The notes below the pieces were generated by a model, which did no database searches, was not told the DNA's origin, and saw nothing but the letters and a program-made list of their open reading frames with translations. Below are positions 14,785 to 54,232 of a stretch of DNA of 64,000 bases, one piece after another. The DNA is from Alistipes sp. GTDB lineage: Bacteria; Bacteroidota; Bacteroidia; Bacteroidales; Rikenellaceae. Within the stretch, counting starts at the first letter, position 1. Each line of letters opens with the position of its first letter. Made by a program: the position numbers and the translations under genes. The stretch covers positions 104,027 to 168,026 of the forward strand of contig JAFNXN010000005.1 of the NCBI GenBank assembly GCA_017379015.1, read 5' to 3'.

Positions 14785-14908
14785 AATTTCTTGTCAGAGT
14801 GGTGCTAATGTGGTGCTGACACGAGAAAGCCCGGATGGGACATACATGACGTATTTCCCATTCGGGCTTTTGATTGAAGTGCCGCAGTAGTGCCACTATC
14901 ACAAGAAA
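14785..14908. repeat. Nested-palindrome element, copy a
   Basis: The outer arms are AATTTCTTGTCAGAGTGGTG at 14785 and GTAGTGCCACTATCACAAGA ending at 14908. The inner hairpin pairs AAAGCCCGGATGGGA (14826-14840) with TCCCATTCGGGCTTT (14856-14870) and has the apical motif ATAC-ATGAC-GTAT. It belongs to the family also seen at 14914, 39043, 44489, 44616, 44745 and 54081. The inner hairpin followed by TTTTGATT could act as a terminator. Confidence 0.85.
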
Positions 14909-14913
14909 GAAAC

Positions 14914-15042
14914 AATTTCTTGTCAGAGCGGTGCTAATTTGCCGCCGATGAAGAAATTGGGCTGGAAGGGACATACTAAGCGTATTTCCCTTTCAGCCCA
15001 ATGATTGAGGTGGCGAAGTAGCGCCACTATCACAAGAAATTT
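14914..15042. repeat. Nested-palindrome element, copy b
   Basis: This tandem neighbour of copy a has outer arms AATTTCTTGTCAGAGCGGTG (14914) and GCGCCACTATCACAAGAAAT (ending about 15041). The inner stem pairs ATTGGGCTGGAAGGGA (14956-14971) with TCCCTTTCAGCCCAAT (14987-15002), one G-T mismatch, with apical ATAC-TAAGC-GTAT. Its right end touches the lpxA stop codon at 15044. Inner stem bases differ from copy a while pairing is kept. Confidence 0.85.
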
Positions 15043-15043
15043 A

Positions 15044-15829
15044 TTATCTGCGTGACTGATACTGCTTGATAACACCACGCTTAGAGCTACGTATAAACTC
15101 GATAAGCTTGTTACGCTCGGGGCTCTCAGCAACCTCGGCCTCGGCCTTGTCGCAGCCCGCCATATAGTTGAGCTCGCTCTGGAACAACACGCGGCAGGTA
15201 TTGTGGATAGACTCGATCTGCTCCTCGCTAAAGCCACGACGCGAAAGACCAATCTTGTTGATACCAGCGTAGTGAGCCTCGCCATTAGTAACGATGATAA
15301 ATGGAGGAACATCCTGCACAAGAAGCGCACCACCCTGAATCATTGCGTGGTCGCCAACGCGAATCCACTGGTGGAGTGCTGCATGGCCACCGATAACTAC
15401 CCAGTCGCCAATCTCCACCTCGCCAGCGAGCGACACTCGGTTGGCTATGACGCAGTGGCTGCCGACAACATCGTCGTGAGCAACGTGAACATAGGCCATG
15501 AGCAGGTTGTGGTCGCCAACAACGGTAGTACCACGCGATGCAGTACCACGCGCAATAGTCACACACTCACGAATATCGTTGTAGTCGCCAATAACAGCTG
15601 TTGTCTGCTCGCCGGCAAACTTTAAGTCCTGAGGCAGGCAGGCGATACAAGCACCGGGATGCACCTTGTTACCCTTGCCAAGACGAGCACCATTATAGAT
15701 GATGGCGTGAGGACCAATCCAACAATCATCACCGATGACTACATCGCCCTCAACATAGGCAAATGGCTCGATGGTAACATTCTTACCAATCTTAGCATCG
15801 GGATGTACATAAGCTAAATTACTAATCAT
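15044..15829 (-). CDS. lpxA: UDP-N-acetylglucosamine acyltransferase LpxA
   Basis: LpxA transfers a 3-hydroxyacyl chain from ACP to UDP-GlcNAc, the first step of lipid A synthesis in the cytoplasm. The start chosen is ATG at 15829 (MISNLAYVHPDAKIGKNVTI), giving 261 residues, close to the E. coli length of 262; a longer frame upstream would overlap the preceding gene. The protein is a left-handed beta helix of hexapeptide repeats (IGDDCWIGPHAII), with the expected catalytic His in LLMAYVHVAHDDVVG and a C-terminal helical region. It lies 23 bases downstream of lpxC-fabZ, an order usual in Bacteroidetes. Confidence 0.96.
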   Translation of the reverse strand: MISNLAYVHPDAKIGKNVTIEPFAYVEGDVVIGDDCWIGPHAIIYNGARLGKGNKVHPGACIACLPQDLKFAGEQTTAVIGDYNDIRECVTIARGTASRGTTVVGDHNLLMAYVHVAHDDVVGSHCVIANRVSLAGEVEIGDWVVIGGHAALHQWIRVGDHAMIQGGALLVQDVPPFIIVTNGEAHYAGINKIGLSRRGFSEEQIESIHNTCRVLFQSELNYMAGCDKAEAEVAESPERNKLIEFIRSSKRGVIKQYQSRR

Positions 15830-15852
15830 AATAACACGTATTAAGTCTAGGA

Positions 15853-17238
15853 TTAACGATTCTTTGCAATCTGTGCTGTGAGCACCGCCTCGCAAGCAAG
15901 CTGACCGCCAACAAATGCCTTACACTCTGCGGTGCAGATGCCACGACGGAAGTCGGTGATGTGGCACTCGAGTTGAAGTGTGTCGCCAGGGACAACCTTA
16001 CGCTTCCACTTCACGCCATCTGCCTTGAGGAAGTATGTCGAGTAGTGCTCAGGATCCTCAACCTTGCTTAGGACAAGGATGCCGCAACACTGCGCCAACG
16101 CCTCGATGATAAGCACACCAGGCATCACAGGCTCCTCGGGGAAGTGACCCACGAAGAAAGGCTCGTTCATCGACACCTGCTTGATACCACCAATGGCATT
16201 CTCCTCGATGTGGAAGACACGGTCGACAAGCAAGAATGGAGGGCGGTGTGGCAGACGTGCCTTGATCTGGTTGATATCGAGGAGTGGCTGCTCCTTAGAG
16301 CTATACTTGAACGATGGCTTCTCGCCGCTGCGACGTATCGAACGGCTGAGCTCCTTCATAAACTCGGTATTGGCAAAGTGGCCAGGACGTGTAGCCCACA
16401 CACGACCCTTGATACGCATGCCTAGGAGGGCAAAGTCGCCAAGGAGATCGAGGAGCTTGTGGCGTGCAAGCTCGTTTGTGGCACGCAGCTGCTGGTTGTT
16501 AAGATAACCGCCAGTGATGCGGATGTCATCCTTGCCGAAGATCTTCTTGAGGTGGTCAAGCTGCTCGTCGGATACAGGGTTCTCAACAACTACGATAGCG
16601 TTGTCGAGGTCGCCACCCTTGATGAGGTTCATCTTCATGAGAGGCTCAAGCTCGTGCAAGAAGACAAACGTACGACACATAGCGATCTTCTCGGCGTAGT
16701 CGTCCGAGGGGTTATATACAGAGTACTGGTTGCCCACAACCTTAGAGTTGTAATCGACGTGTACCGATACCGAGAACTCGTCATCGGGATATATCACGAT
16801 GGCAACACCCTTCTCAGGGAGTGTGTAGACCTGCTTCTCTGTCACCTCATAATATTTGCGCTCTGCGGTCTGCTCCACAGTGCCCACCTCCAAGATACGC
16901 GCTGCATACTCACGCGCCGAGCCATCCATGATAGGTGTCTCAGGGGCATTGATCTCAACAATAGCGTTATCGACCTCTAGGGTCCAGAGTGCCGACATGA
17001 TGTGCTCGATGGTGCTCACCTTAGCCTCACCACGCTCGATGGTTGTGCCACGCGAAGTGTCGGTAACAAACTCACAGAGAGCAGGAACCTCGGGGCAACC
17101 CTCAATATCAACACGACGGAAAACTATACCTGTATTATCCTCGGCGGGACAAACTCTCATATTTACCTGCAAACCAGTATGCAGTCCCTTACCCTCGAAA
17201 GAGATCGGAGCGGCAAGGGTACGTTGTTTAATAGCCAT
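15853..17238 (-). CDS. lpxC/fabZ: Bifunctional UDP-3-O-acyl-GlcNAc deacetylase / 3-hydroxyacyl-ACP dehydratase
   Basis: This 461-residue protein fuses LpxC (about residues 1-305), the zinc deacetylase committing to lipid A, with FabZ (about 315-461), the dehydratase of fatty acid synthesis. LpxC motifs are ISFEGKGLHTG, the zinc-site region STIEHIMSALWTLEVDNA and RVWATRPGHFANTEF. FabZ begins IKARLPHRPPFLLVDRVF and has the catalytic His and Glu in VGHFPEEPVMPGVLIIEALA. The fusion is characteristic of Bacteroidetes. It is the first gene of an lpxC-fabZ/lpxA transcript with a TATATTTG promoter box just upstream on the minus strand. Confidence 0.98.
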   Translation of the reverse strand: MAIKQRTLAAPISFEGKGLHTGLQVNMRVCPAEDNTGIVFRRVDIEGCPEVPALCEFVTDTSRGTTIERGEAKVSTIEHIMSALWTLEVDNAIVEINAPETPIMDGSAREYAARILEVGTVEQTAERKYYEVTEKQVYTLPEKGVAIVIYPDDEFSVSVHVDYNSKVVGNQYSVYNPSDDYAEKIAMCRTFVFLHELEPLMKMNLIKGGDLDNAIVVVENPVSDEQLDHLKKIFGKDDIRITGGYLNNQQLRATNELARHKLLDLLGDFALLGMRIKGRVWATRPGHFANTEFMKELSRSIRRSGEKPSFKYSSKEQPLLDINQIKARLPHRPPFLLVDRVFHIEENAIGGIKQVSMNEPFFVGHFPEEPVMPGVLIIEALAQCCGILVLSKVEDPEHYSTYFLKADGVKWKRKVVPGDTLQLECHITDFRRGICTAECKAFVGGQLACEAVLTAQIAKNR

Positions 17239-17266
17239 TACGATAAATTTTTAAATATATCACGCG

Positions 17267-17274
17267 CAAATATA
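17267..17274 (-). promoter_or_regulatory. Bacteroidetes -7 box of lpxC-fabZ
   Basis: CAAATATA on the + strand reads TATATTTG on the minus strand, matching TAnnTTTG, 28 bases before the lpxC-fabZ start. No convincing -33 box was seen. Confidence 0.5.
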
Positions 17275-17296
17275 CAAATTTTCTCAAAAAAATTAC

Positions 17297-17304
17297 TATT
17301 TTTG
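17297..17304 (+). promoter_or_regulatory. Bacteroidetes -7 box of the TonB-like gene
   Basis: TATTTTTG matches TAnnTTTG and ends 18 bases before the ATG at 17323. It is divergent to the lpxC promoter, with only 22 bases between the two boxes. Confidence 0.45.
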
Positions 17305-17322
17305 CTCGGAAATAATGTGGTT

Positions 17323-18195
17323 ATGAGCAATAAAGACCTCAATAAAGAGATAAATAGTTCTACATCAAGCCTCAATGCAAGGCAAGCACAGCATGGGCAA
17401 CAGAGGGTTGCACCTCGACCTCACGTGCGCATCGACCTCAGTCAGACGCGCCATGAGAGCGTGGGCGAATGGCTGTTCAACCATCGTGTAGGACTCCTTG
17501 TTGTCTTTGCAGTGCTAGTGCTCTCGGGCACGGTGCTCGCCACAGCGCGCTACACCGTGGAGCGCACAGAGCTTGAGTATCTCATCGAGATTGCCCCCGA
17601 GGAGTTTGAGGAGCAGAAGCGCGAGGAGCAAAAGCCCCAAATTTCGGAAGAGGAACTTTATCAGCGTATGCAGAGTGTGCGCAACGTGATCTCGAACGAC
17701 GCCGCAACGGAGGAGTCGTCGGGCAGCAGCTCAGAGTTTGACGAGGAGATAGAGCAACTTATGGAGGATGTTGCCGAGGGCATGGATGCCAACCGCACAG
17801 CCTACGAGGAGGGTCTAAGCTCGATACGAGGCAAGGGCGACAGCGGCAAGGGTGGCGGCAACGAGAAGGGTGATGGCAAGAAGGAGGGCGACCAGAGCAA
17901 GGGCAAGTATCAAGGTTCATGTACCGTGAGCTACAGCTTCTCGGACCCTGTTCGCAACCATCGCAACCTTCACGTGCCAGCATACACTGCACGCGGAGGC
18001 GGTGTCGTGGTAGTAGATGTATCGCTCGACCGCAACGGTAGCGTGGTATCGGCATCGGTAGCCTCGTCGACAAACGCTAGTCTCAACAAGATTGCACTAC
18101 AAGCAGCACGCAACTACAACACACGATTTAACATCGACAGCTCGGCACCTTCGCCACATAGAGGCACAATAACATACACATTTGTAGCACAGTAG
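17323..18195 (+). CDS. TonB-like energy-transducing protein
   Basis: The start chosen is ATG at 17323 (MSNKDLNKEINSS), right after a promoter box; an upstream open frame from 17002 lies inside the antisense lpxC gene. The 290-residue protein has a cytoplasmic N-terminus, one membrane helix (GLLVVFAVLVLSGTVLATA near residue 62), an acidic/coiled periplasmic stretch, a Gly/Lys-rich linker (GKGDSGKGGGNEKGDGKKEG) and a C-terminal domain with VVVVDVSLDRNGSVVSASV and ALQAARNYNTRFN, as in TonB C-terminal domains. TonB proteins pass proton-motive force to outer-membrane transporters such as SusC. No exbBD genes are adjacent. Confidence 0.82.
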   Translation: MSNKDLNKEINSSTSSLNARQAQHGQQRVAPRPHVRIDLSQTRHESVGEWLFNHRVGLLVVFAVLVLSGTVLATARYTVERTELEYLIEIAPEEFEEQKREEQKPQISEEELYQRMQSVRNVISNDAATEESSGSSSEFDEEIEQLMEDVAEGMDANRTAYEEGLSSIRGKGDSGKGGGNEKGDGKKEGDQSKGKYQGSCTVSYSFSDPVRNHRNLHVPAYTARGGGVVVVDVSLDRNGSVVSASVASSTNASLNKIALQAARNYNTRFNIDSSAPSPHRGTITYTFVAQ

Positions 18196-18199
18196 AGCA

Positions 18200-18607
18200 G
18201 TGACAGGATTGGACAAAATATGGCGCAGAATATTTGTGATGGTGGTTGCCTTGATCATTGGGGCAGCCAGCAACATCACAGCTACGCCCCTGCACGAGAT
18301 AAGTAGCCACCTCAACTGCTACTCGGAGGCGGCACACTCGGAGCCCGCGCAGCCCACATTTGAGTTGCAGCGTCCAACACTTGGGCTTACCACCACAAAT
18401 CAACTATCGCAGGCTTCAACCCCTGCAGTACGCACCCTACCTCGCACCCTACGCCATGTGCCACGATGCACAGCATGCTCTGCCGCAGTGCGCTCGATAG
18501 ACTCGACAACAACGGCATCAAGATACGGATTGTATAACCATAAAATATTGTTCTATACTCATCCTCGCCACTACTACCTTAATGGCTTGATGAGGCTTAT
18601 TATTTAG
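18200..18607 (+). CDS. Hypothetical exported or membrane protein
   Basis: A GTG at 18200, 4 bases after the TonB-like gene, opens a 135-residue frame with a basic n-region (KIWRR) and hydrophobic segment (IFVMVVALIIGAASNITA), consistent with a signal peptide or membrane anchor. The remainder is Thr/Ser/Ala-rich with several Cys (CTACSAAV) and no recognised domain. An ATG at 18239 is an alternative start but loses the basic n-region. Function is unknown; close spacing suggests co-transcription with the TonB-like gene. Confidence 0.45.
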   Translation: MTGLDKIWRRIFVMVVALIIGAASNITATPLHEISSHLNCYSEAAHSEPAQPTFELQRPTLGLTTTNQLSQASTPAVRTLPRTLRHVPRCTACSAAVRSIDSTTTASRYGLYNHKILFYTHPRHYYLNGLMRLII

Positions 18608-18674
18608 TCGACGCGATACTTCATAGCGTTTTTATAAAGTATTTTTAATCAACTAAATAACAGATAGAACAAAC

Positions 18675-19169
18675 ATGAATACAGAGAATTTATGCAAGGC
18701 ATTGTATGCCTTGCCCGGAGGTGTTGTCGAACCACGCCGTCAGAGTGTCACAACACCAACAATCATCGCCCTTGTAGGCGTCGCTCTTTTGATTTTGAAC
18801 CACACGCTCGTAGATGACTCGCAAGAGATATTATCTATGTCGCTACTCACAGCATCCATAGCTATGATACTTTACGGAGCTCTTGTCACCCTGGTGCGCC
18901 TCAACAGCAACAAGCAGGTGCCCTACGACAACGAGGTGCATAGCTTCATGAAGTATCGCGAGCGTTACTACGATCCACAGCTCGTAGCTCCGCTACGCAA
19001 GGCTATAGAGTGTGGAGATATTGAGGCGATAGAGACTATGCCTACGACAAATATTGCCGCAGTAACACTTGTCGAATATCGCTCATCAAGGCGAAGAGCA
19101 TACGCTCTCTATCAATATGGCGAAGCTGAGTACAAGCCTCTGTCCGAGCCAGTTGTCGTAGACAAATAA
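18675..19169 (+). CDS. Hypothetical two-helix membrane protein
   Basis: The 164-residue protein has two predicted membrane helices, about residues 29-47 (IIALVGVALLILNHTLV) and about 55-74 (SLLTASIAMILYGALVTLV), followed by a roughly 80-residue soluble C-terminal part (SFMKYRERYYDPQLVAPLRKAI). No known domain is recognised. It precedes the K+/H+ antiporter gene by 43 bases and may be co-transcribed; a link to the antiporter is only inferred from position. Confidence 0.7.
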   Translation: MNTENLCKALYALPGGVVEPRRQSVTTPTIIALVGVALLILNHTLVDDSQEILSMSLLTASIAMILYGALVTLVRLNSNKQVPYDNEVHSFMKYRERYYDPQLVAPLRKAIECGDIEAIETMPTTNIAAVTLVEYRSSRRRAYALYQYGEAEYKPLSEPVVVDK

Positions 19170-19212
19170 GAAAAGTTAAAACAAAATAACGTAACCCGTA
19201 AACATCAACTAT

Positions 19213-20700: not shown

Positions 20701-20846
20701 TAAGAGGCTGAGTGGCGAGGACGAGATAGCTTGAAAAATAGACTGAAGGACTAAGAGAAGGTCGTGACTAAATGATGATACCCGACATCTCTTGATCCTT
20801 TTGTCAAATTGTCACTTTGTCCCAAGGTGAAACAGATACAAGAAAG

Positions 20847-20890
20847 GCCCGAATTGGAAATACTCTCTGAAAAGTATTTTCAATTCGGGC
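20847..20890. terminator. Bidirectional terminator between antiporter gene and argR
   Basis: An 18-bp stem pairs GCCCGAATTGGAAATACT (20847-20864) with AGTATTTTCAATTCGGGC (20873-20890), one G-T mismatch, 8-base loop, followed by TTT and preceded by AAA on the other side. Placed between converging genes. The ATTCGGGCTTT end matches that of the inner hairpin at 14826-14870. Confidence 0.8.
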
Positions 20891-20896
20891 TTTGGG

Positions 20897-21361: not shown

Positions 21362-21514
21362 AATTACCCCTTGATTTAGAATTTGATAAAGACAAATACG
21401 CTAACCTGCCAGATTGCCTAAAGGGGATTAAACCATCGCACAAAGGTTAGTTGACTATCTCTTTCAAACGATAAATTTATACTAGTTCAAATTGTGTCTA
21501 TATTCACTCATATT

Positions 21515-24826: not shown

Positions 24827-24886
24827 CTTGCGAAGCCCGAAAAAGCGGAGTTTACTGAGCGTAAATGAGCATTTTGAGGGCAAGCG
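24827..24886. repeat. Second repeat family, copy 1 (nested hairpin)
   Basis: The 33-base core 24843-24875 matches 29590-29622 at 31 of 33 positions by eye (starting AAAGCGGAGTTTAC). Inside is the small stem GTTTAC/GTAAAT; an outer stem GCTTGC (24827) with GCAAGC (24881) encloses it. The outer stem differs from copy 2. Confidence 0.65.
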
Positions 24887-24936
24887 TAACGACAAAATAC
24901 ACTTTTTATTCAGCTTCATTTGTAATTTATATTTAC

Positions 24937-29517: not shown

Positions 29518-29582
29518 CTTTTATACTCTACAAGTGTAGATATATAAAGTTAGATGTTGTGACTATTTTGAAGCTGCTCGCA

Positions 29583-29629
29583 GTCTGGCAAAGCGGAGTT
29601 TACAAAGCGTAAATGAGCATTTGACAGAC
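29583..29629. repeat. Second repeat family, copy 2 (nested hairpin)
   Basis: The 33-base core 29590-29622 is shared with 24843-24875, the only differences being AA versus TG in the loop. The inner stem is GTTTAC/GTAAAT; the outer stem is GTCTG (29583) with CAGAC (29625), different in sequence from copy 1. It lies between buk (3' end) and aroQ (5' end); nothing else is seen in 29518-29665. Confidence 0.65.
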
Positions 29630-29665
29630 AAGGCAGATGCCAAAAGAGTCGAACAGATAACTTTA

Positions 29666-33279: not shown

Positions 33280-35223
33280 ATGGCTACTGAAAACATTAAC
33301 CTTGTGGCTCCTGAGGAGCTTGTCGGCACCCCAGCCGAAGATACGCAGACGACATCTAACACGGTCTCAAACCAGACACCGAACTTCGACAACAACGAGT
33401 TTAGCACACCCACAATGAGCGAGCAGTTTGCCGACGAGGAGGCTGCACTAGCTGCTGACGAGGCAGGACTCAACCTCGGCGACGAGACTGCCGAGGAGCA
33501 GGAGGCAGCACCCCACACTGGCGACGACATCTCTGGGCTCTCCGAGGCTGAACTGGTTGCACTCTTTGCCGCAAAGATCGAGTCGGAGCCAGTACAGACA
33601 CTGCGTCCAGTAGTCGAAGCTATAAAGATAGCATTCTACAAGCAACGCCGCGCCAAGGTAGATGCCGAGCGCAAGGCATTCATCGAGGCGGGTGGCGACG
33701 AGAACGAGTTCACGCCAACAAGCAACGAGGAGGAGCAGCGTCTTAAGGAGCTATTCGCCATCTACCGCGAGCAGCGCGACAAGCACATTGCCCTCATGGA
33801 GCATGCCAAGGAGGAGAACCTCAAAATAAAGCTCCAGATCATCGATGAGCTTAAGGAGTTGGTGAACTCAGACGAGACGATGAACACCACCTTCACACGT
33901 TTCCGCGAGTTGCAGACACGCTGGAAGGAGACAGGCCTTGTTCCACAGCAGAACGTCAAGGACCTCTGGGAGACATACAACCTCCACGTCGAGAACTTCT
34001 ACAACTTCATCAAGATCAACAAGGAGCTTCGCGACCTCGACCTTAAGAAGAACTACGAGGCGAAGATCTCGCTCTGCGAGCAGGCCGAGGCACTTACCTT
34101 CGACAGCCAGATTGTGGAGTCATTCCGCAAGCTTCAGAAATTGCACGACGAGTGGCGCGAGACAGGTCCTGTGGCAATCGAGTTTAAGGAGGCTCTATGG
34201 GAGCGTTTCAAGGAGGCATCGAGCCGCATCAACAAGCGTCACCAGGAGTATTTCGAGGGCATTAAGGCTGAGCAGACAAAGAACCTAGCACTCAAGAGCG
34301 AGCTATGCGAGAAGGTAGAGGCTATGACCGAGCAGCCTACACTATCACGCAAGGAGTGGAACAAGCTAAGCGACGAGCTTCTTGAGATCCAGAAGGTTTG
34401 GAAGACCATCGGCTACGCCCCAAAGAAGGATAACAACCGCATCTACGAGCGTTTCCGCGCAGCATGCGACAAGTTCTTCGAGCTCAAGCGCGAGTTCTAC
34501 GCTGGCGTGAAGGGCGAGATGGAGCACAACTTAGCCCTCAAGCAGGAGCTATGCGAGCAGGCAGAGGCACTTGCCACATCGGAGGATTGGAAGCATACAA
34601 CAGATGAGCTTATCGCACTTCAGGCAAAGTGGAAGCAGGTGGGTCCTGTGGCACGCCGCCACTCTGATGTTGTGTGGAAGCGTTTCCGCGCAGCATGCGA
34701 CAAGTTCTTCGAGCGCAAGGCAGCACACTTCTCTACAATCGACTCTACACATGAGGAGAACCTCAAGCTCAAGCAGGCACTGCTTGCCGAGATGAAGGCT
34801 GCCGACATCAAGGCCGGAGGCTTTGAAGCCATCAAGGAGTTCCAGCGTCGCTGGAGCCAGATTGGCTTTGTGCCCATCAAGCACAAGGATGCTCTCCAGA
34901 AGGAGTATAAGGCTCAGGTGGACGCCATGTTCTCGGTGCTACGCTCAACAGAGCGCGATCGCTCGATGAACCGCTTCAAGGAGCGTGTGGCGAGCATGAA
35001 GGGTGGCAACCAGCTACGCTCTGAGCGCGAGAAGCTATTCAACAAGGTGCGCCAGATGGAGCAGGATATAGCCCTTCTAGAGAACAACATCGGCTTCTTC
35101 TCGAAGTCGAAGAATGCTGAGGCACTAATCGCCGACGTACGCGAGAAGATCGAGCGTGCAAAGCGCGACATGGCACAGCTTATCGAGAAGATCCAGCTTA
35201 TCGACGCCGAGAGCAACAACTAA
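33280..35223 (+). CDS. DUF349 coiled-coil protein
   Basis: The 647-residue soluble protein has an acidic, low-complexity N-terminal region (about 1-95) and then tandem DUF349 units, each containing a W-K/R-x-[TV]-G-x-[VA]-P signature: LQTRWKETGLVPQQN, LHDEWRETGPVAIEF, IQKVWKTIGYAPKKD, LQAKWKQVGPVARRH and FQRRWSQIGFVPIKH. The C-terminal 60 residues form a coiled coil (KVRQMEQDIALLENNIGFF). DUF349 proteins are widespread in Bacteroidetes with unclear function. It precedes pyrG by 37 bases. Confidence 0.9.
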   Translation: MATENINLVAPEELVGTPAEDTQTTSNTVSNQTPNFDNNEFSTPTMSEQFADEEAALAADEAGLNLGDETAEEQEAAPHTGDDISGLSEAELVALFAAKIESEPVQTLRPVVEAIKIAFYKQRRAKVDAERKAFIEAGGDENEFTPTSNEEEQRLKELFAIYREQRDKHIALMEHAKEENLKIKLQIIDELKELVNSDETMNTTFTRFRELQTRWKETGLVPQQNVKDLWETYNLHVENFYNFIKINKELRDLDLKKNYEAKISLCEQAEALTFDSQIVESFRKLQKLHDEWRETGPVAIEFKEALWERFKEASSRINKRHQEYFEGIKAEQTKNLALKSELCEKVEAMTEQPTLSRKEWNKLSDELLEIQKVWKTIGYAPKKDNNRIYERFRAACDKFFELKREFYAGVKGEMEHNLALKQELCEQAEALATSEDWKHTTDELIALQAKWKQVGPVARRHSDVVWKRFRAACDKFFERKAAHFSTIDSTHEENLKLKQALLAEMKAADIKAGGFEAIKEFQRRWSQIGFVPIKHKDALQKEYKAQVDAMFSVLRSTERDRSMNRFKERVASMKGGNQLRSEREKLFNKVRQMEQDIALLENNIGFFSKSKNAEALIADVREKIERAKRDMAQLIEKIQLIDAESNN

Positions 35224-38930: not shown

Positions 38931-38954
38931 AAGAGAAGTAGTAAATCACAAAAG

Positions 38955-39006
38955 AAGAGGTCTCGGGATAGTACAAAAACGTACAGTCCGAGGTCTCTTA
39001 CTTTTT
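38955..39006 (+). terminator. Second hairpin after yidC with T-run
   Basis: AAGAGGTCTCGGGATAGTAC (38955-38974) pairs imperfectly with GTACAGTCCGAGGTCTCTT (38981-38999) around an AAAAAC loop, followed by ACTTTTT. The apex GTAC-AAAAAC-GTAC has the same design as the nested-palindrome family. Confidence 0.6.
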
Positions 39007-39009
39007 GGG

Positions 39010-39046
39010 ATGTGCCACAGATGCACTCTTATCGTCGAAAACAAAT
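39010..39046. repeat. Truncated right end of a nested-palindrome element
   Basis: The segment GATGTGCCACAGATGCACTC, then TTATCGTCGAAAACAAA, resembles the right arm GTGCCGCAGATGACGCCTTA plus TCACAACAAAT of the family. No left half is seen, so it is a remnant abutting copy c. Confidence 0.5.
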
Positions 39047-39173
39047 TTTTGATTAGAAGGCTGCAGATACAACACTCGGCAAAAATGCCACCGATGGGTA
39101 GTACTTGGGGTACGTCCCATTGGTGGCACTTTTTTGCTAGCGGCAGTAGATGTCTGCCTTATCATCAAAAATT
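39043..39173. repeat. Nested-palindrome element, copy c
   Basis: The outer arms are AATTTTTGATTAGAAGGCTG (from 39044) and GTCTGCCTTATCATCAAAAA (ending about 39171). The inner stem pairs TGCCACCGATGGGTAGTAC (39086-39104) with GTACGTCCCATTGGTGGCA (39110-39128), loop TTGGG, followed by CTTTTTT and preceded by AAAAA, so it looks like a bidirectional terminator. The right end overlaps the stop of the S24 regulator gene at 39172. Confidence 0.85.
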
Positions 39174-39852
39174 ACCCGATGGTGTGCATACGAATAGATG
39201 CCTTCACAAGAGCTATCGCACGTATACGGTCAATCTCCACCTCTTTATCAGCATGGTGCTGGTTCTGGCTTACAAGCTTTACGAAGCCATCGTGGTCGGA
39301 TTTCTGAACATACTTAACGGTGATATACTCTTCGCCATCTATGTCGATAGAGAGGAGATACATATCACCCCAAAATACATCGCGAACGTCGGAGAGCTGC
39401 TTATATAATATAATGTCACCGCTCTTAAGAAGTGGATACATTGAGTCGCCAACAATATATATTGCACCATCACACTTAGGGAGGTTGGGGATATGGATAA
39501 AGTCCTTGGGCTTCACCACGGGCTCCTCAGCAAAAATAGGACGTAGGCCAGCAGTACCCTCGATGGAGTAGAGAGGCACGCTCTGAAGAGGCAACGAACG
39601 ATCGGTACGGTGGAGGTAGGATGTCAGGTCGGGCTCGGCATTAAACATCTTACCCTTACCAGTCTCAAGCCACTCAACATTAAGATTAAATTCCTGAACA
39701 AAGATATTTTTGTTACGCTGAGAGAGGCCAGCCTTTCCAGTTTCAATCATTGAGAGCGCAGCCTTTCCTATTCCAAGTCGCTGAGCTAGTTGATCTTGAG
39801 TGAGCTTCAATTGCTTGCGCATCAGACGAACTCGCATTGCTACAGTTTCCAT
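39172..39852 (-). CDS. LexA/CI-type S24 transcription regulator
   Basis: The 226-residue protein has an N-terminal XRE helix-turn-helix (residues about 6-60: MRKQLKLTQDQLAQRLGIGK followed by AALSMIETGK) and a C-terminal S24 peptidase domain. Ser137 (YIVGDSMYPLLKSGDIIL) and Lys180 (EEYITVKYVQK) form the catalytic dyad. An Ala-Gly pair at 101-102 (EGTAGLRP) is a candidate self-cleavage site. Such proteins repress phage or SOS genes and self-cleave on RecA activation. It is divergent to the 95-aa gene and terminase gene, whose promoter carries a palindrome, so it probably represses that unit. Confidence 0.9.
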   Translation of the reverse strand: METVAMRVRLMRKQLKLTQDQLAQRLGIGKAALSMIETGKAGLSQRNKNIFVQEFNLNVEWLETGKGKMFNAEPDLTSYLHRTDRSLPLQSVPLYSIEGTAGLRPIFAEEPVVKPKDFIHIPNLPKCDGAIYIVGDSMYPLLKSGDIILYKQLSDVRDVFWGDMYLLSIDIDGEEYITVKYVQKSDHDGFVKLVSQNQHHADKEVEIDRIRAIALVKASIRMHTIG

Positions 39853-44488: not shown

Positions 44489-44623
44489 AATTTGTGTTAG
44501 ACGGTGTTAGGTACAACGCTCGGCAAAAATGCCACCGATGGGTAGTACTTGAAGGTACGTCCCATTGGTGGCATTTTTTTGTTAGAGACCGCAATCGATC
44601 CCTTATCAAAGTATAGTCAATTT
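44489..44623. repeat. Nested-palindrome element, copy d
   Basis: This first member of a three-copy array has a left arm AATTTGTGTTAGACGGTGTT and a decayed right arm (TCCCTTATCAAAGTATAGTC). The inner stem pairs TGCCACCGATGGGTAGTAC with GTACGTCCCATTGGTGGCA around TTGAAG, followed by TTTTTTTG. The inner hairpin arms are identical to those of copy c at 39086, while the outer arms differ. Confidence 0.8.
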
Positions 44624-44748
44624 GTTGTTAGAAGGCGTTAGATGTGGTGCCAAGTCGAAATTGAAACGGATGGGGGAATACTTGGGCGTATTTCCCCATT
44701 CGTAGCAATGAGCTTGGTGCCGCAGATGACGCCTTATCACAACAAATT
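44616..44748. repeat. Nested-palindrome element, copy e
   Basis: The outer arms are AATTTGTTGTTAGAAGGCGT (from 44619) and GACGCCTTATCACAACAAAT (ending 44747). A middle stem involves GTGGTGCCAAG and CTTGGTGCCGC. The inner stem pairs ATGGGGGAATAC with GTATTTCCCCAT around TTGGGC. It matches copy g (54081-54213) at 131 of 133 positions by eye. Confidence 0.9.
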
Positions 44749-44873
44749 TGTTGTTAGAAGGCGTTAGATACAACGCTCGGCGAATTTCGAGGCGATGGGC
44801 TGTACTTGGGCGTACTGCCCATTGACGAGATAATTCGCTAGCGGCAGTAGATGACGCCTTATCACAACAAATT
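44745..44873. repeat. Nested-palindrome element, copy f
   Basis: The same outer arms as copy e (AATTTGTTGTTAGAAGGCGT; GACGCCTTATCACAACAAAT) but a different middle and inner part: CGCTCGGCGAATT pairs with AATTCGCTAGCG, and GATGGGCTGTAC with GTACTGCCCATT around TTGGGC. It shares a 4-base palindromic junction with copy e, and its right end overlaps the proS stop at 44872. Confidence 0.88.
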
Positions 44874-46356
44874 AATAGGATTTGGCAAACAATACACGAT
44901 ACTTCGAAGGCTTACCCGAGAACACGCAAGTACCCTCCTCCTCGACTACATCCATAGGGATGCAGCGGATGGTCGCCTTTGTAGCCTCCTTGATGGCCTG
45001 CTCAGTCTCAGGAGTGCCATCCCAGTGTGCTGAGATGAAGCCACCCTTGGTGTTGAGTACCTCCTGGAACTCCTCCCAGGTATCAACCTTAGTAATCATC
45101 GAGTTACGATAGTCGAGAGCCTTCTGGAAGATGCTCTTCTGGATCTCGTCGAGAAGGTTAGCTACGTAGTCAGCAAGGCCCTCCTGCTTAACAACCTCTT
45201 TAGTGAGGGTGTCACGACGCGCAAGCTCGATAGTGCCATTCTCAAGGTCGCGTGGGCCGAGTGCAAGACGCACAGGCACACCCTTCAACTCATACTCGGC
45301 AAACTTGAAGCCTGAGCGCACGTTGTCGCGAGCATCAATCTTAACCGACACGCCCTTAGCACGAAGCTCACGAGCGATCTCCTCGAAGCGTGCAACAACC
45401 TGCAAACGCTGCTCCTCACCCTTGTAGATAGGTACCATAACAACCTGTATAGGGGCCAACTTTGGAGGAAGCACAAGACCGTTATTGTCAGAGTGAGCCA
45501 TGATGAGAGCACCCATCAGACGAGTAGACACGCCCCACGATGTTGCCCATACATACTCCTGCTTACCCTCCTTCGAGGTGTACTGCACGTCGAATGCCTT
45601 AGCAAAGTTCTGACCGAGGAAGTGCGATGTACCACTCTGCAACGCCTTACCATCCTGCATCAACGCCTCGATGGTGAGTGTGTCGACAGCACCTGCAAAA
45701 CGCTCGTTAGGCGACTTGTGACCCACGATAACAGGCACACCCATCCACTCCTCGGCGAATGTCTTGTAGACGTTAATCATACGCTCTGTCTCCTTGATAG
45801 CCTCCTCGGCTGAAGCATGAGCCGTGTGACCCTCCTGCCACAAGAACTCGGCAGTACGGAGGAAGAGACGCGTACGCATCTCCCAGCGCACCACGTTTGC
45901 CCACTGGTTGCAGAGGATTGGAAGGTCGCGGTATGAGGTAATCCAATTCTTATATGTGTTCCAGATGATTGTCTCAGATGTAGGGCGCACGATAAGCTCC
46001 TCCTCGAGGCGCGCTGCGGGGTCTACCACAACACCCTTACCCTCCTCGTCGTTCTTGAGGCGGTAGTGAGTCACCACAGCACACTCCTTAGCGAAGCCCT
46101 CAACGTGGCTTGCCTCACGCGAGAAGAAAGACTTAGGGATGAAGAGTGGGAAGTAGGCATTCTCGTGACCTGTCTCCTTGAACATACGGTCGAGCACATC
46201 ACGCATCTTCTCCCAAATAGCATAGCCATAAGGCTTGATAACCATACAGCCGCGAACAGCCGAGTTCTCAGCCAAGCCCGCCTTAATAACCAAGTCGTTG
46301 TACCACTGTGAGTAGTTCTCGTCGCTCTTGGTTAGATCCTTTAATTCAACTGCCAT
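44872..46356 (-). CDS. proS: Prolyl-tRNA synthetase ProS
   Basis: ProS charges tRNA-Pro. The start chosen is ATG at 46356 ([21 protein letters not shown]), giving 494 residues of the archaeal/eukaryotic-type (no editing insertion) enzyme; the frame is open to 46446 but that ATG lies upstream of the promoter box. Class II motifs are seen: motif 2 region ([20 protein letters not shown]), [16 protein letters not shown], the [19 protein letters not shown] motif 3, and a C-terminal anticodon-binding domain starting [11 protein letters not shown]. The 3' end touches a repeat array. Confidence 0.97.
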
Positions 46357-46416
46357 AATATGTTTTGTTATGTTTTGATTGCAATGATCAAAATACCTAA
46401 AAGGTATAATCGGCGG

Positions 46417-46424
46417 CAAAGATA
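46417..46424 (-). promoter_or_regulatory. -7 box of proS
   Basis: CAAAGATA reads TATCTTTG on the minus strand, 60 bases before the start at 46356. It argues against the longer frame that begins at 46446. Confidence 0.55.
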
Positions 46425-46515
46425 CAAAATAAACCTCAAATTTCAAAACAAAAATAACCTATATAACAACACATTCAAAAAGACGATATGTTTAAAAAAT
46501 AAGACTATTAGCGAA

Positions 46516-48269: not shown

Positions 48270-48289
48270 CATCAATTTTATATCGAACG

Positions 48290-49081: not shown

Positions 49082-49917
49082 TGAAACGAATACTCTCTAC
49101 CGGATATTTGGTGCTACTGCTCATCATGCTCTACGCACCTATCGCCATCATCGCCATCTTCTCGTTCACCGAGTCGAAGGTGCTGGGCAACTGGACGGGG
49201 TTCTCAACAGAGCTCTACACGTCGCTCTTCTCGGGCGGTGTGCGCTACTCGCTGGTTGATGCCCTCAAAAACACCTTTATCATCGCTACAATAGCCGCTA
49301 CGGTCTCTACGATACTTGGAACTATTGCAGCGATTGGCATCAACGACCTTAGCTCGCGAAAGCGTCGAGTAGTCAACTTTATGAACAATATACCTATTCT
49401 TAATCCCGACATTATCACAGGTATATCACTCTTCCTACTCTTCGTATCGCTCGGCATCAGCCAGGGCTACATGACCGTGATTTTGGCACATATCGCCTTC
49501 TGCACGCCATACGTAGTGCTCAGCGTCATGCCACGCCTCACACAGATGAACCCTAACATCTATGAGGCAGCACTCGACCTTGGTGCTACACCGATGCAGG
49601 CTATGCGCCGAATAATCATACCTGAGATTCGTCCAGGCATGATCTCGGGCTTCATCCTAGCCTTTACGCTCTCGATCGACGACTTTGCCGTGACCATCTT
49701 CACAAATGGTACAGATGGCTTGCAGACGCTCTCGACATATATCTATGCCGATGCTCGCAAGGGCGGTCTTACGCCTGAGCTACGTGCGCTATCTACGATC
49801 ATCCTAGTGGTGGTGGTAGTGCTACTTATCGTTGTTAATTATCGTGCCCGCCGCCAGGCTAAGCGTGCTGAGAAGCAGGCTACGCAGGTGACAATAAAAA
49901 CTAGAGAACGCCGATGA
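49078..49917 (+). CDS. potC: Polyamine ABC transporter permease PotC
   Basis: The 279-residue second permease has six hydrophobic helices and the EAA loop YEAALDLGATPMQAMRRIII near 162. The family-typical SIDDFAVTIFTNG segment follows. The start overlaps potB and its stop overlaps potD by 4 bases (ATGA). It ends in a basic cytoplasmic tail (YRARRQAKRAEKQ). Confidence 0.95.
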   Translation: MMKRILSTGYLVLLLIMLYAPIAIIAIFSFTESKVLGNWTGFSTELYTSLFSGGVRYSLVDALKNTFIIATIAATVSTILGTIAAIGINDLSSRKRRVVNFMNNIPILNPDIITGISLFLLFVSLGISQGYMTVILAHIAFCTPYVVLSVMPRLTQMNPNIYEAALDLGATPMQAMRRIIIPEIRPGMISGFILAFTLSIDDFAVTIFTNGTDGLQTLSTYIYADARKGGLTPELRALSTIILVVVVVLLIVVNYRARRQAKRAEKQATQVTIKTRERR

Positions 49918-51347
49918 AACTCAGATATACTAACATTCTAAGAACGCTTGTTGTGGCTCTCGTCGCGCTCTTCAGCGCAAGTTGTGGCGTAAGCGAGGAG
50001 CGCATGCACACCCTCAAGGTCTACAACTGGGGTGACTATATCGACGAGGATCTTCTCTCCGAGTTTGAGTCTTGGTACAAGGAGCATACTGGTGAGAGCG
50101 TGCAGATAATCTACCAGACCTTCGACATCAACGAGGTGATGCTCGCAAAGATCGAGAATGGCATGGCAGACTTCGACGTTGTCTGCCCCTCGGAGTATAT
50201 CATCGAGCGTATGATGCGCAACGAACTGCTACAACCCATCCTCACACCCGAGTTCGAGCAGGAGATCAACGATAAGGGTATCAACTACTTCAACTGCGTA
50301 TCACCATACATCAAAGAGCAGTTCTCGTTGCTCGAAGCCCCTGAGGGTCAAGATCCTAACGACTACTCAGTAGGCTACATGTGGGGTACTACGGGTATTC
50401 TCTACAACACCAAGTATGTAACCGAGGAGGAGGCGATGTCGTGGAATCTGATGTTCGACAAGAGGCTTCAAGATAAGATCTTTGTTAAGGATGCCTTCCG
50501 CGACGTATACTCACCCATCTTGGTATATGCTAAGACCCTAGAGGCTCGTCAAAACGGAACGCTTGGCGAGGATGAGATGCTCGACATTGAGACCATACGC
50601 GAGCTTATGTACGACTCGTCGGATGAGTCGATAGCACTCGTCGAGAGCTACCTCAAGCGCATGAAGGAGCTTGTTGCTGGCTGGGAGGCAGACTTCGGCA
50701 AGGAGATGATGACTCAGGAGAAGGGTTGGATCAACCTTATGTGGAGTGGCGATGCGGTATGGGCTATCGAGGAGGCAGCAGAGGTTGACGTGGAGCTAGA
50801 CTACACCGTGCCCGTGGAGGGTAGCGTTGTATGGTTCGATGGTTGGGTGATCCCCAAGTATGCCGTCAACACACGTGCTGCGCGCTACTTCATCGACTTT
50901 ATGTGTATGCCTGAGAATGCTATTCGAAATATGGATGCTACGGGTTATGTCAGCGTAGTGACCAACGAGGAGGTGCTTGAGTATATCTCTAGCGAGGAGG
51001 ACTACGACGAGGCTATCGACCTCAGCTACCTCTTTGTACATGCCGATGGCACACCTATCGAGGGTGCTGATAGCGTATTTGCAGACCCAGTGCTATACCC
51101 ATGTCGCTCGGTTATCGACCGCTGTGCTGTGATGCACGACTCGGGCGATCGCACCGACAAGATGCTCGAGATGTGGTCGCGTGTCAAGGGCGACAACCTC
51201 TCGACAGGTATGCTTGTAGGCATCATCCTCTTCTTCAGCGTGATGTTCGTCTGGGGTATCGCCCGCAAGGTGAATAACTACCGCAAGAGGCAGAAACACC
51301 TAAAGCGTCGCCACCACCGTGCACAGACAGAGAGGCGAGGCAAATAG
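49914..51347 (+). CDS. potD: Polyamine-binding protein PotD with C-terminal membrane anchor
   Basis: The 477-residue substrate-binding lipoprotein (signal ending ALFSASC) shows PotD features: LKVYNWGDYIDEDLLSEFE, GMADFDVVCPSEYIIERMM, and YMWGTTGILYNTKYV. It is about 100 residues longer than typical PotD (about 350-370) because, after the binding domain, it has a hydrophobic helix (LVGIILFFSVMFVWGIARKV) and a strongly basic tail (KRQKHLKRRHHRAQTERRGK). This predicts a second anchor through the inner membrane besides the lipid. It is the last gene of potABCD. Confidence 0.93.
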   Translation: MKLRYTNILRTLVVALVALFSASCGVSEERMHTLKVYNWGDYIDEDLLSEFESWYKEHTGESVQIIYQTFDINEVMLAKIENGMADFDVVCPSEYIIERMMRNELLQPILTPEFEQEINDKGINYFNCVSPYIKEQFSLLEAPEGQDPNDYSVGYMWGTTGILYNTKYVTEEEAMSWNLMFDKRLQDKIFVKDAFRDVYSPILVYAKTLEARQNGTLGEDEMLDIETIRELMYDSSDESIALVESYLKRMKELVAGWEADFGKEMMTQEKGWINLMWSGDAVWAIEEAAEVDVELDYTVPVEGSVVWFDGWVIPKYAVNTRAARYFIDFMCMPENAIRNMDATGYVSVVTNEEVLEYISSEEDYDEAIDLSYLFVHADGTPIEGADSVFADPVLYPCRSVIDRCAVMHDSGDRTDKMLEMWSRVKGDNLSTGMLVGIILFFSVMFVWGIARKVNNYRKRQKHLKRRHHRAQTERRGK

Positions 51348-51394
51348 CATAAACACGTATTACAATAACATCTAAAAAACTAAACTAACAAACG

Positions 51395-52261
51395 ATGACA
51401 AGAAAGGTATTTTCCCTGCTTGCCACCCTTGCGCTCATTCACTCTGCGCAGGCAACAACACTAACCCCACGACTCAACAGCGTTAGCTCACAGATCACCG
51501 CCCCAACACTCAGCCTCGCATCGGAGGAGGACGAGGAGGAGGGACTCTTCTGGTGGGGCGCAGGTGCTAACATTACGTCAAACTACCTATGGCGTGGCTA
51601 CGACCAGCCATACTCGGGCAATATGTTCGATCCAGCAATCCAGCCTAGCGTGACCCTCGGCCTTGGAGCTTTCTACGTCGACCTGTGGTATAACTTCTCG
51701 ACGATGAGCAAATATCAGGAGCTCGACATGACCCTCGGTTTCGACTACAATAATCTCTCGATCACCCTCTACGACGTGTGGTGCGACTACGGTAAGGCAT
51801 TCTGGACCAACGACTTCCTCGATGACCAGAACCACAGCCTCACGGCGACCATCGAGTACACCTTCTTTGATCGTCTACGCCTACACTGGGGTACAACGTT
51901 CCTACACTCGGCAGACTGGCTCTACAATGAGGATGGCTCACGCAAGCGTCGCGCCTTCTCATCATACTTCGAGGTGGCATACACCCAGCCTGTTAAGGAT
52001 CTGTTCGACATCGAGATTACGGCTGGTGCATCGCCCTGGACAGGTCCCTTCTGGTGCGCTGGTCCTCGCAAGATGGTTGACGGAGCTCCAGAGCTAGACT
52101 TCGACAATATCCCCGAGGGCTTTAATGTCACTAACCTCAGCCTTATGCTCAACAAGGAGTTTGAGGTGGGTGCAGCGACAATTCCCGTGAACTTGGGATA
52201 TGTATTCAACCCAACAACAAAGCGTCACTACGCCATCCTAAAGACTGGCTTTGCGTTCTAA
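51395..52261 (+). CDS. Porin-like outer-membrane beta-barrel protein
   Basis: The 288-residue exported protein has a signal peptide (MTRKVFSLLATLALIHSAQA) and alternating hydrophobic strands with aromatic residues ending in Phe (YAILKTGFAF). The segment GANITSNYLWRGYDQ resembles the N-terminal motif of the Gcw_chp/TorF putative porins. It follows potD by 47 bases, possibly part of the same transcript, hinting at an outer-membrane partner for uptake; this is inference from position. A strong terminator follows. Confidence 0.75.
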   Translation: MTRKVFSLLATLALIHSAQATTLTPRLNSVSSQITAPTLSLASEEDEEEGLFWWGAGANITSNYLWRGYDQPYSGNMFDPAIQPSVTLGLGAFYVDLWYNFSTMSKYQELDMTLGFDYNNLSITLYDVWCDYGKAFWTNDFLDDQNHSLTATIEYTFFDRLRLHWGTTFLHSADWLYNEDGSRKRRAFSSYFEVAYTQPVKDLFDIEITAGASPWTGPFWCAGPRKMVDGAPELDFDNIPEGFNVTNLSLMLNKEFEVGAATIPVNLGYVFNPTTKRHYAILKTGFAF

Positions 52262-52278
52262 ACGAACGGCATATATTG

Positions 52279-52319
52279 AACAAGAGGTTGCCTCGGCGTG
52301 AGGCAACCTCTTGTTTTGC
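52279..52319. terminator. Bidirectional terminator between porin-like and MFS genes
   Basis: A perfect 16-bp stem pairs AACAAGAGGTTGCCTC (52279-52294) with GAGGCAACCTCTTGTT (52300-52315), 5-base loop, followed by TTGC. It serves the converging genes on both sides. Confidence 0.85.
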
Positions 52320-53530
52320 TATCGTAGCCTATACTTATGGAAATGCGGTGCGACCACCCTCCAGAAGAATAGTAGCGCAACGAGTATTAACCCAGCACCG
52401 AGCATATAGCAGTACGAGTAGTCGAACTCCGAGATATAGCCGCCGAGCAACATACCACCGCCAATGCCGACATCCCAACCAGTGAGGTAGGTGGCATTTG
52501 CCGTGGCACGACGCGAGTTAGGCGCGAGGTTGATAAATAGCGTATTGTACGCTGGGAACATGGTGCCATAGCCATAGCCAAAGAGGAATGCCGTGAGGAA
52601 ATAGGTGACATATCCCGCCGTGATGCTCCATGCCGAAACCGTTGATAATAGAGCCTCGCCCACGCCACCGACAAAAGCTATCGCTATGCCTAGCAGTATC
52701 GTCTCGGTGATGAAGCCACGATCTACGCGCTTACCCGAGTGTAGACGTGAGGCGATGAGTCCCGCCGCCATGACGGTAAAGAAGAGACCGGCATTGTGCG
52801 TAATACCCGACTTAGCAGCATATAGAGCCATGTAGCTTGTGGTCATGCCATAGGGGATCGCCAAAAGGAGGAAGGCGACGCATGCACGAATACCCTCCTT
52901 AAGGAAGAAACGATCTGTCGAGAGCCTAAACTCACCCTTAGGCTGAAGCTCGCGACGCGGAGCACGCACCAGAGCACCTAGCAAGAGTCCGACGCAGCCA
53001 GTGACAAGCGAGGTGAGGAATAGAAGCATATAGTTGCCAGACGATGTGACGAAGAGTCCCACCATAGGGCCAAACGCCATTGCGAGGTTGTTGGTAACGC
53101 CATAGTAGCCCAGGCCCTCGCCACGACGCGACGATGGCATGATGTCGATAACAAGGGTATTAGCCGCCGTGGTGAGCATTCCAAATGTAAAGCCATGGAG
53201 GATGCGCAGGAGGATGAATAGCGCGAGGCTCTCAGTTATGAAGAGATACCCAGTAAATGAGGCGACAAAGAGTGTGTATGCCACAACAAAGACCCTCTTT
53301 CGAGGTAGTGAGTCGGCAACAAATCCCGCCATAGGTCGCACGCTAAGCACCGCCACAACATAGCACGACAGGACCACACCCACTAGCGCAGGGCTAATGT
53401 TGAAGGTATCCTTGAGATACAACGGCAGCGTGGGCACAAGGATAAAGAACGAAAACGACATCATAAATGCCGATATGCACACAAATATATAATCGCGCGT
53501 AAAGAGCCGATCTTTAACTTGGGGTTTCAT
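52319..53530 (-). CDS. MFS transporter
   Basis: The 403-residue membrane protein has about 12 helices and MFS motif A (GFVADSLPRKRVFVVAYTL near 68-86), plus a repeated half with SGKRVDRGFITETILLG. The type resembles small-molecule exporters. A 99-residue winged-helix regulator is divergently encoded, with the two promoters interleaved, so the exporter is probably drug- or metabolite-inducible. The substrate is not known. Confidence 0.9.
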   Translation of the reverse strand: MKPQVKDRLFTRDYIFVCISAFMMSFSFFILVPTLPLYLKDTFNISPALVGVVLSCYVVAVLSVRPMAGFVADSLPRKRVFVVAYTLFVASFTGYLFITESLALFILLRILHGFTFGMLTTAANTLVIDIMPSSRRGEGLGYYGVTNNLAMAFGPMVGLFVTSSGNYMLLFLTSLVTGCVGLLLGALVRAPRRELQPKGEFRLSTDRFFLKEGIRACVAFLLLAIPYGMTTSYMALYAAKSGITHNAGLFFTVMAAGLIASRLHSGKRVDRGFITETILLGIAIAFVGGVGEALLSTVSAWSITAGYVTYFLTAFLFGYGYGTMFPAYNTLFINLAPNSRRATANATYLTGWDVGIGGGMLLGGYISEFDYSYCYMLGAGLILVALLFFWRVVAPHFHKYRLR

Positions 53531-53555
53531 ACTTGATGAGTGTAAATTGATAGTA

Positions 53556-53625
53556 CAAATTTACTATATAAAGTTAAATTTGATCAAAAAATATTTGGTT
53601 TATTTTATAAACTTGTTTACATTTG
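53556..53625. promoter_or_regulatory. Divergent promoters of MFS and regulator genes with a shared palindrome
   Basis: For the MFS gene (minus strand): -7 TAAATTTG at 53556-53563 and -33 TTTG at 53585-53588 (21-base spacer). For the regulator (plus strand): -33 TTTG at 53594-53597 and -7 TACATTTG at 53618-53625 (20-base spacer). The palindrome TTTGATCAAA (53579-53588) overlaps the MFS -33 box and is a candidate operator. Confidence 0.6.
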
Positions 53626-53689
53626 CATAAGCAAAAAGGCCTTTGAAGCAGAGAAAAAGTGTATAACCAACTAAAAAACAACTACTAAG

Positions 53690-53989
53690 ATGCTTAAGCC
53701 ACTTAATCCCATACTCCACTCTGAGCTACGCCTCGCCATAATGTCGATACTTATCGCCACGGAGAGCGCAGATTTCGTATATCTACGAACAGAGACAGGT
53801 GCCACAGCGGGCAACCTAAGCGTACAACTCGACAAGTTGCAGCGCGCCGGATATATCGAGATCGAAAAGGGGTTTAACGGCAAACTACCTCGCACAACAT
53901 GCTCGATGAGCGACAAGGGGCGCGAGGCAATGAGAGAGTACATAGACACGCTACAGGAGTATCTGGGAACAGCAATAAAGAGCAGATAG
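53690..53989 (+). CDS. Winged-helix transcription regulator (ArsR/MarR-like, HTH_34 type)
   Basis: The 99-residue protein has the small winged-helix pattern: LHSELRLAIMSILIATESAD, FVYLRTETGATAGNLSVQLD with the recognition helix, and LQRAGYIEIEKGFNGKLPRT with the wing, then SDKGREAMREYIDTLQEYL. It is divergent to the MFS exporter gene and probably regulates it. No effector-binding domain is present beyond the winged helix. Confidence 0.85.
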   Translation: MLKPLNPILHSELRLAIMSILIATESADFVYLRTETGATAGNLSVQLDKLQRAGYIEIEKGFNGKLPRTTCSMSDKGREAMREYIDTLQEYLGTAIKSR

Positions 53990-53997
53990 CGCAAACG

Positions 53998-54086
53998 ATG
54001 GGGATGTCTAATTTCGATTAGCCATCCCCATTTTCGTAGCAATGAGCTTGGTAAAGCAGATGACCCCTTATCACAGCAAAGTCAAT
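53998..54086. repeat. Terminator hairpin joined to a right-half nested-palindrome element
   Basis: The terminator-like stem ATGGGGATGTCTAAT (53998-54012) with ATTAGCCATCCCCAT (54017-54031) and TTTT follows the regulator gene. It continues directly as CGTAGCAATGAGCTTGG and ACCCCTTATCACAGCAAAG, the right half of the family. It looks like an element in which another hairpin replaces the usual inner stem and the left half is missing. Confidence 0.6.
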
Positions 54087-54232
54087 TTGTTGTCAGAAGG
54101 CGTTAGATGTGGTGCCAAGTCGAAATTGAAACGGATGGGGGAATACTTGGGCGTATTTCCCCATTTGTAGCAATGAGCTTGGTGCCGCAGATGACGCCTT
54201 ATCACAACAAATTATCTATCACAACAAATTAT
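54081..54232. repeat. Nested-palindrome element, copy g, with duplicated right tip
   Basis: 54081-54213 is almost identical to copy e (131 of 133 by eye). After it the right tip ATCACAACAAATTATCT is repeated (54201-54217 and 54218-54234), touching the stop codon at 54233. Confidence 0.9.

Follow-up and report, generated by a model that had tools for sequence, protein, structure and literature searches.

Results

We describe a family of hairpin-forming elements in a 64,000-nucleotide stretch of DNA (the window; positions 104,027 to 168,026 of contig JAFNXN010000005.1) from a metagenome-assembled genome (MAG) of Alistipes sp., a member of the Bacteroidales. Seven copies of a common design start at window positions 14785, 14914, 39043, 44489 (decayed), 44616, 44745, and 54081. 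All copies and fragments named here read on the plus strand, and at each of the four loci that they form, a gene on the minus strand ends next to the element. Two loci are fused exactly to the stop codon, one lies 2 nt from it, and in one a partial repeat of the element's right end stands in between.

The first locus is a two-copy array. Its distal copy (14785 to 14908) was recognized by sequence, fold, and a match to the covariance model described below. Its stop-side copy (14914 to 15041) has its right end 2 nt away from TTA, the reversed TAA stop codon of an lpxA-like gene (15044 to 15895, minus strand; TIGR01852, 306.9 bits against a cut-off of 231), which has its stop towards the element. 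This stop-side copy is 96.8 to 97.6% identical to three copies in genome G000, where the flanks are unrelated. Immediately left of the array, at 14640 to 14760, lie degenerate inverted TTAGGGA/CCCTAAA-like units; similar sequence precedes many elements in other genomes.

At the second locus, a copy with a model match (39043 to 39174) overlaps with its end the TTA stop triplet (39172 to 39174) of a gene resembling helix-turn-helix regulators (39172 to 39852, minus strand; weak matches below cut-off only). It is preceded by a distal copy (38945 to 39042) that is decayed and has a core of the GAGGTCTC type; this one was seen by eye only and has no model match of its own. The third locus is a three-copy array consisting of a decayed distal copy (44489 to 44609; sequence, fold, and model match), a middle copy (44616/44619 to 44748; sequence and model match), and a stop-side copy (44745 to 44873) fused to the TAA (triplet 44872 to 44874) of proS, the gene for proline--tRNA ligase (44872 to 46446, minus strand; TIGR00408, 554 bits against a cut-off of 437). 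At the fourth, the right part of a truncated distal copy (54033 to 54080; model match at C6:158051-158106, which is window 54025 to 54080) is followed by a full copy (54081/54084 to 54213; sequence and model match). A stub repeating part of the element's right end (54214 to 54230) separates the full copy from a minus-strand gene (54233 to 55861) that has no NCBIfam match at E <= 0.001 and whose TAG stop triplet starts about 20 nt past the full element. Window positions 54062 to 54213 and 44597 to 44748 are 96% identical.

Four further fragments had been listed in a first-pass annotation of the window. The one at 54031 is supported by the model match just given, and that at 39010 is the right end of the decayed copy, identified by eye only. 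The other two, at 62107 and 62465, are absent from the model matches in the window's own genome at E <= 0.1 and so are not confirmed; the hairpins standing alone there (62107 to 62152 and about 62465 to 62510) are core-like or plain terminator-like.

The element is about 125 bases long and can form a hairpin nearly from end to end, its ends being paired (AATTT...AAATT). Outermost is a 10-bp arm, in most copies AATTTSTTGT with ACAASAAATT. Next comes a 3x3 mismatch region in which YAG stands opposite ATC; then, between a second stem and a third stem that varies in type, lies a 2x2 loop, often GA opposite GA. The innermost part is a core hairpin whose apex is RTAC-N5-6-GTAY, and some cores are flanked by A and T tracts. 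In folding tests, the six well-preserved window copies gave z scores of -7.8 to -13.1 as RNA and -7.2 to -9.2 as DNA, and the decayed copy gave -4.4 and -5.0. In the left flanks of several elements, a recurrent motif near ATTAGCACCRCRACCC stands directly before AATTT (for example, at L142, L199, L203, and L207); it may be what is left of older copies, or else a target or a scar. The window also has another hairpin-like repeat, containing AAAGCGGAGTTTAC...GTAAATGAGCATTT, at positions 24831 to 24897 and 29579 to 29645. At G000:C18:15334 and C25:78964, standard arms enclose a core similar to it, so repeat families may swap cores.

The stems change while pairing is kept. In the alignment of the seven window copies, 88.2% of paired cells can pair (75.7 +/- 1.5 in shuffles), and 33 cells are changed on both sides against 12.3 in shuffles. 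We then used a 93-row alignment, drawn from 77 sources and fitted to the model, one row being the opposite strand of another. Both sides have changed in 35 of its 43 pairs, with 610 double-changed cells against 196.5 +/- 10.7 in shuffles; none of 500 shuffles reached 610, and controls with the structure slid along the alignment gave 63 to 155. The four RTAC/GTAY apex pairs form in 99.7% of cells. The proposal that these repeats are one family with a fixed architecture and compensatory changes in its stems is supported.

We carried out the covariance-model search that had been suggested as a check, and the family is more extensive than the first-pass annotation saw. When the MAG that contains the window (1,710,923 bases, 78% complete) was searched with the model (R1), built from the seven window copies, 103 matches were obtained at E <= 0.1. 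These reduce to 66 places after opposite-strand doubles were merged by hand and an adjacent weak match (C25:62043) was omitted; the weakest few of the 66 have E values between 0.0004 and 0.06. Among 61 genomes of the genus, 38, the own MAG included, have a match at E <= 1e-6 under stricter filters, and 11 of these carriers have at least 54 matches each. Four high-copy relatives have 125, 140, 145, and 149 matches among the best 150 of 411 to 468 candidates scored, counts that may include opposite-strand doubles. Exact matches to the right-end pattern AATTTSTTGTGATA are present in 28 of the 61 genomes, with a maximum of 82 in one genome. Across the GTDB collection, the exact arm pattern is found in at least 120 stretches; among the 80 matches listed, all come from Alistipes sp. 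or a Rikenellaceae bacterium, the sample-named ones from ruminant hindgut.

The placement of the elements is strongly biased. We examined 176 distinct copies, calling genes as plain open frames. A gene on the right could be called for 162 of them, and in 151 of these it is on the minus strand, with its stop turned towards the element. For the gene on the left, neither orientation is preferred (74 plus, 82 minus, 20 uncalled). In 71 copies, the stop triplet overlaps the element end by exactly two bases, so that in the sense of the gene the sequence reads TAA and then TTTSTTGTGATAAG. The stop lies within -12 to +7 nt of the element end in 111 of the 151; ten of these are at -12, a register that puts the stop at a TGA within the element. 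Another 20 of the 151 lie at 117 to 133 nt, as expected for second array members.

The folded strand is also biased. At paired columns, G.U outnumbers A.C by 468 to 101 in 106 elements (kept from 150 rows) and by 266 to 88 in 61 elements (kept from 99). The forward strand, which is antisense to the adjoining gene, folds more stably in 84 of 92 copies as RNA and in 90 of 92 as DNA (one of 93 rows was dropped).

Arrays have a polarity. There are two standard arm 10-mers, and among stop-side members one or the other is present in 30 of 46 right arms and in 34 of 46 left arms. Among distal members, the left arm has one in 33 of 49 and the right arm in 8 of 49. In many distal right arms, A has changed to G, so that A-T pairs have become G.T pairs: G.T and A.C arm pairs number 28 and 5 in the 49 distal copies, against 2 and 3 in the 46 stop-side copies. 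In each of 46 arrays we compared the stop-side (rightmost) copy with the most distal one. Watson-Crick arm pairs were more numerous in the stop-side copy in 33 arrays, less numerous in 4, and equal in number in 9 (p 5e-7). The detector requires at least six arm pairs, which should work against such a difference.

The earlier suggestion of a mobile element holds as far as signs of mobility go. Target duplications were not found. There are 52 pairs of copies that are at least 95% identical although their flanks are unrelated; in 19 pairs both copies come from one genome or locus. Together the pairs involve 56 of the 176 elements, the window copy at 14914 included. Of 114 single copies, at most one has matching flanks of 4 to 9 bp, whichever boundary was tried, and TA flanks 76 on the right, 37 on the left, and 28 on both sides. 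A TA-type miniature inverted-repeat transposable element (MITE) with target duplication was rejected on these counts. In a more general form, the elements would be ordinary MITEs that have inverted repeats at their ends and are mobilized by a DDE transposase, and the position at stops would be what selection tolerates. The portion of PMC2229807 that we consulted describes MITE-type palindromes (ERIC/IRU, RUP, Correia/NEMIS, RPE, and YPAL) as imperfect hairpins of about 100 to 200 bp, non-autonomous, in many copies, and mostly intergenic; our elements are like these in size, long imperfect hairpin, inverted ends, and copy number, and DDE transposases were not searched for. They differ in their one main orientation behind stops, their polar arrays, the lack of a visible target duplication, and the replacement of stems while loops stay. 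We consider ordinary MITEs quite unlikely, given one orientation in 151 of 162 cases and an exact stop-codon register in 71.

Orthologous genes differ in what follows their stops. Among the 30 proS loci shown, 8 have an element behind the stop, in several sequence types; it is fused to the stop at seven and comes after a short stub at one. All eight are among the 14 best-scoring loci, and the protein is not shortened. At seven gene ends, proS included, in 12 genomes, a regular expression loose enough to include decayed copies finds an element at 28 of 83 sites; the genes were chosen for having elements in the window's genome (G040), so these rates are biased upward. This comparison listed 95 of a possible 96 gene-genome matches, and g6 (these are our labels for the genes) was found only in G040. 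The stop is TAA in 27 of 28 sites with an element and in 32 of 43 without (p 0.02; g7 and G040 left out of this test and of the terminator test below). Genomes G040 and G011 are 91% identical around proS. By eye, they have the same element at g3 and g5 and different ones at g1 and g2, and at proS G040 has one extra copy between the stop and the copy common to both.

By eye also, the g4 element keeps its arms in G040 and G011 while its core differs, and some distal copies have mixed arm types. These observations would fit gene conversion and template switching between palindromes derived from old 3' ends, without any transposition enzyme. The presence or absence of elements varies between orthologs, though, and the arms common to different types span only about 20 bp; we find this explanation hard to credit.

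The position directly behind stop codons raises another alternative, namely, that the elements are host 3'-end regulatory hairpins (terminators or mRNA stabilizers), perhaps domesticated, that act in the mRNA of the adjoining gene. The A and T tracts flanking some cores fit this, as does the fact that orthologs without an element have other 3' regions at the same place. However, canonical terminators do not appear to be enriched: one crude detector found a hairpin plus T-tract within 150 nt after the stop at 6 of 28 sites with an element and 12 of 43 without, against 0 of 28 and 1 of 43 in shuffled sequence. A terminator reading as the general function, raised in the first-pass annotation, is not borne out by this detector. 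In addition, the mRNA strand is the worse-folding one, near-identical copies have unrelated flanks, and 23 of the 61 genus genomes have no model match under the E <= 1e-6 search. Regulatory hairpins seem unlikely to us.

We looked for enzymes and known families. Y1 (IS200-type) transposase (PF01797, E <= 1e-5) was found in none of the 61 genus genomes and in 5 of 14 control genomes. Integron integrase (TIGR02249) was over cut-off in none of the 61 and none of the 14 controls, so that this search has no positive control; on this basis, integron attC was rejected as an identity. Weaker tyrosine-recombinase matches occur in all 61, and recombinases of other kinds are therefore neither supported nor excluded. 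A scan of the window at Rfam gathering thresholds returned only a tRNA, and searches of the open-licence PubMed Central literature turned up no description of the family. A repetitive extragenic palindromic (REP) element with its RAYT was rejected as well. According to the part of PMC3733652 available to us, REPs are 20 to 40 bp with an unpaired end tag, and those tagged CGTC have no known transposase and are present in Bacteroidetes. Our elements resemble REP/BIME and CGTC-tagged REPs in their many palindromic copies and lack of a known transposase; unlike them, they are about 125 bp with paired ends in place of an unpaired GTAG/CGTC end, and Y1 transposase is missing from all 61 genomes.

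Copying through RNA was a further candidate. A reverse transcriptase would copy a folded forward RNA onto the sense strand of the gene, with the copying ending at the stop codon; this would explain orientation, polarity, and partial right-end repeats on the stop side. Such repeats matched a regular expression 7 times in 156 copies (4 convincing by eye), with none on the left, and L217, L273, and L338 were added by eye. The reverse transcriptase domain RVT_1 is present in 18 of the 61 genomes, including four with at least 54 element matches (G003, G025, G040, and G041). Yet 28 of the 38 carriers, among them the many-copy genomes G000, G017, G044, G051, and G059, have no RVT_1 and 10 have it, in MAGs that are incomplete. 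RNA-templated copying appears very improbable.

An order-level search matched 2 of 198 genomes, the window's own and G202, from another family. In the family of G202, 6 of 8 genomes match at E <= 0.001. Where readable, these second-family copies keep the mismatches and an ATAC/GTAT apex, with different arms (GGATTGT, GGTTTGT, GGGTTGT, and AATATTGAT), and some stand in tandem arrays. Ten loci give nine distinct places, partly by eye, and five of the nine are at a minus-strand gene stop (L344, L346, L350, L351, and the pair L348/L352, counted once); of these, L348 seems to be orthologous to L350. At L350 (G202) and L348/L352 (G259), some tandem units are nearly identical and regularly spaced at about 149 bases, where the window's genus has mixed arrays instead.

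Elsewhere in the window, repeats at 34246 to 34719 are internal to an open frame (33280 to 35223).

Discussion

Our best explanation is that these hairpin elements, about 125 bp long, are non-autonomous, have been mobile recently, and usually land at the 3' ends of genes. We hold it with as much confidence as doubt. The computed support consists of covarying stems, many copies, stop fusion, the antisense-strand fold, array polarity, unrelated flanks, differing elements at orthologous stops, and a second family. Stop-codon fusion in one orientation, the antisense-strand fold, array polarity, and the absence of target duplications were all missed in the first-pass annotation.

As for mechanism, the form that is copied or recombined may be the folded antisense strand, probably as single-stranded DNA and less likely as RNA. 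A putative enzyme would recognize the fixed mismatches and the apex, not the stem sequence, and would join the new copy at the stop codon, so that arrays would grow at the stop side. The stop codon might be recognized either as a sequence (TAA) or through gene expression.

Several points weigh against the idea of mobile elements landing at gene ends. Searches with PF01797, PF00078, and TIGR02249 found no enzyme for element movement. The evidence is equally compatible with DNA and RNA as the folded form. No empty site in a very close strain is at hand, so the exact joint is not defined. The model that set the orientation had itself been built in it, and this could raise G.U counts relative to A.C; the comparison of folding energies is independent of the model's pairs and was run on the same set of copies. 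The stop side was taken as the rightmost copy, with no array-by-array check. Regular expressions preferentially detect copies whose arms pair, orthologous genes do not provide independent copies, and genes were called as plain open frames. A plus-strand gene stands on the right of 11 of the 162 callable copies, 20 of the 151 minus-strand cases are neither near the stop nor at the distance of second array members (19 to 32 or 152 to 988 nt), and 8 of 176 copies fall inside an open frame by crude calling. In the second family, L345 has a minus-strand gene about 250 nt off, L353 has a plus-strand gene on the right, and L347 and L349 gave no clear call.

A bolder reading is that these Bacteroidales elements form a new mobile class, one that homes to stops and whose copies are added directionally by an enzyme belonging to none of the IS200, integron, and reverse-transcriptase families. 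Recognition of the folded antisense strand by mismatch and apex geometry would leave the stems free to change. We regard this as possible and rather doubtful. Palindromic repeats are widespread in bacteria, and to our knowledge none has been described as settling at stop codons in one orientation.

In some ways, the elements are like the attC sites of integrons. attC sites keep structure rather than sequence and are located behind a gene, their ends carry R and L boxes (RYYYAAC/GTTRRRY), and clusters of attC sites known as CALINs have no integron integrase by definition. The orientation of attC insertion is set by the folded bottom strand, as described in the part of PMC8876359 that we consulted. 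Here, too, the folded strand is antisense to the gene and orientation is fixed in most copies; this is a resemblance in behavior, and membership in integrons is not shown. Unlike attC sites, our elements stand at housekeeping genes (proS and lpxA), the window arrays hold no genes, and no integrase is over cut-off.

If mobile elements of this kind are at work, they would offer many natural structural variants with covariation and a measurable polarity, and their landing site would connect mobile DNA with the places where translation or transcription ends. The elements show how the 3' ends of genes can be replaced within a genus.

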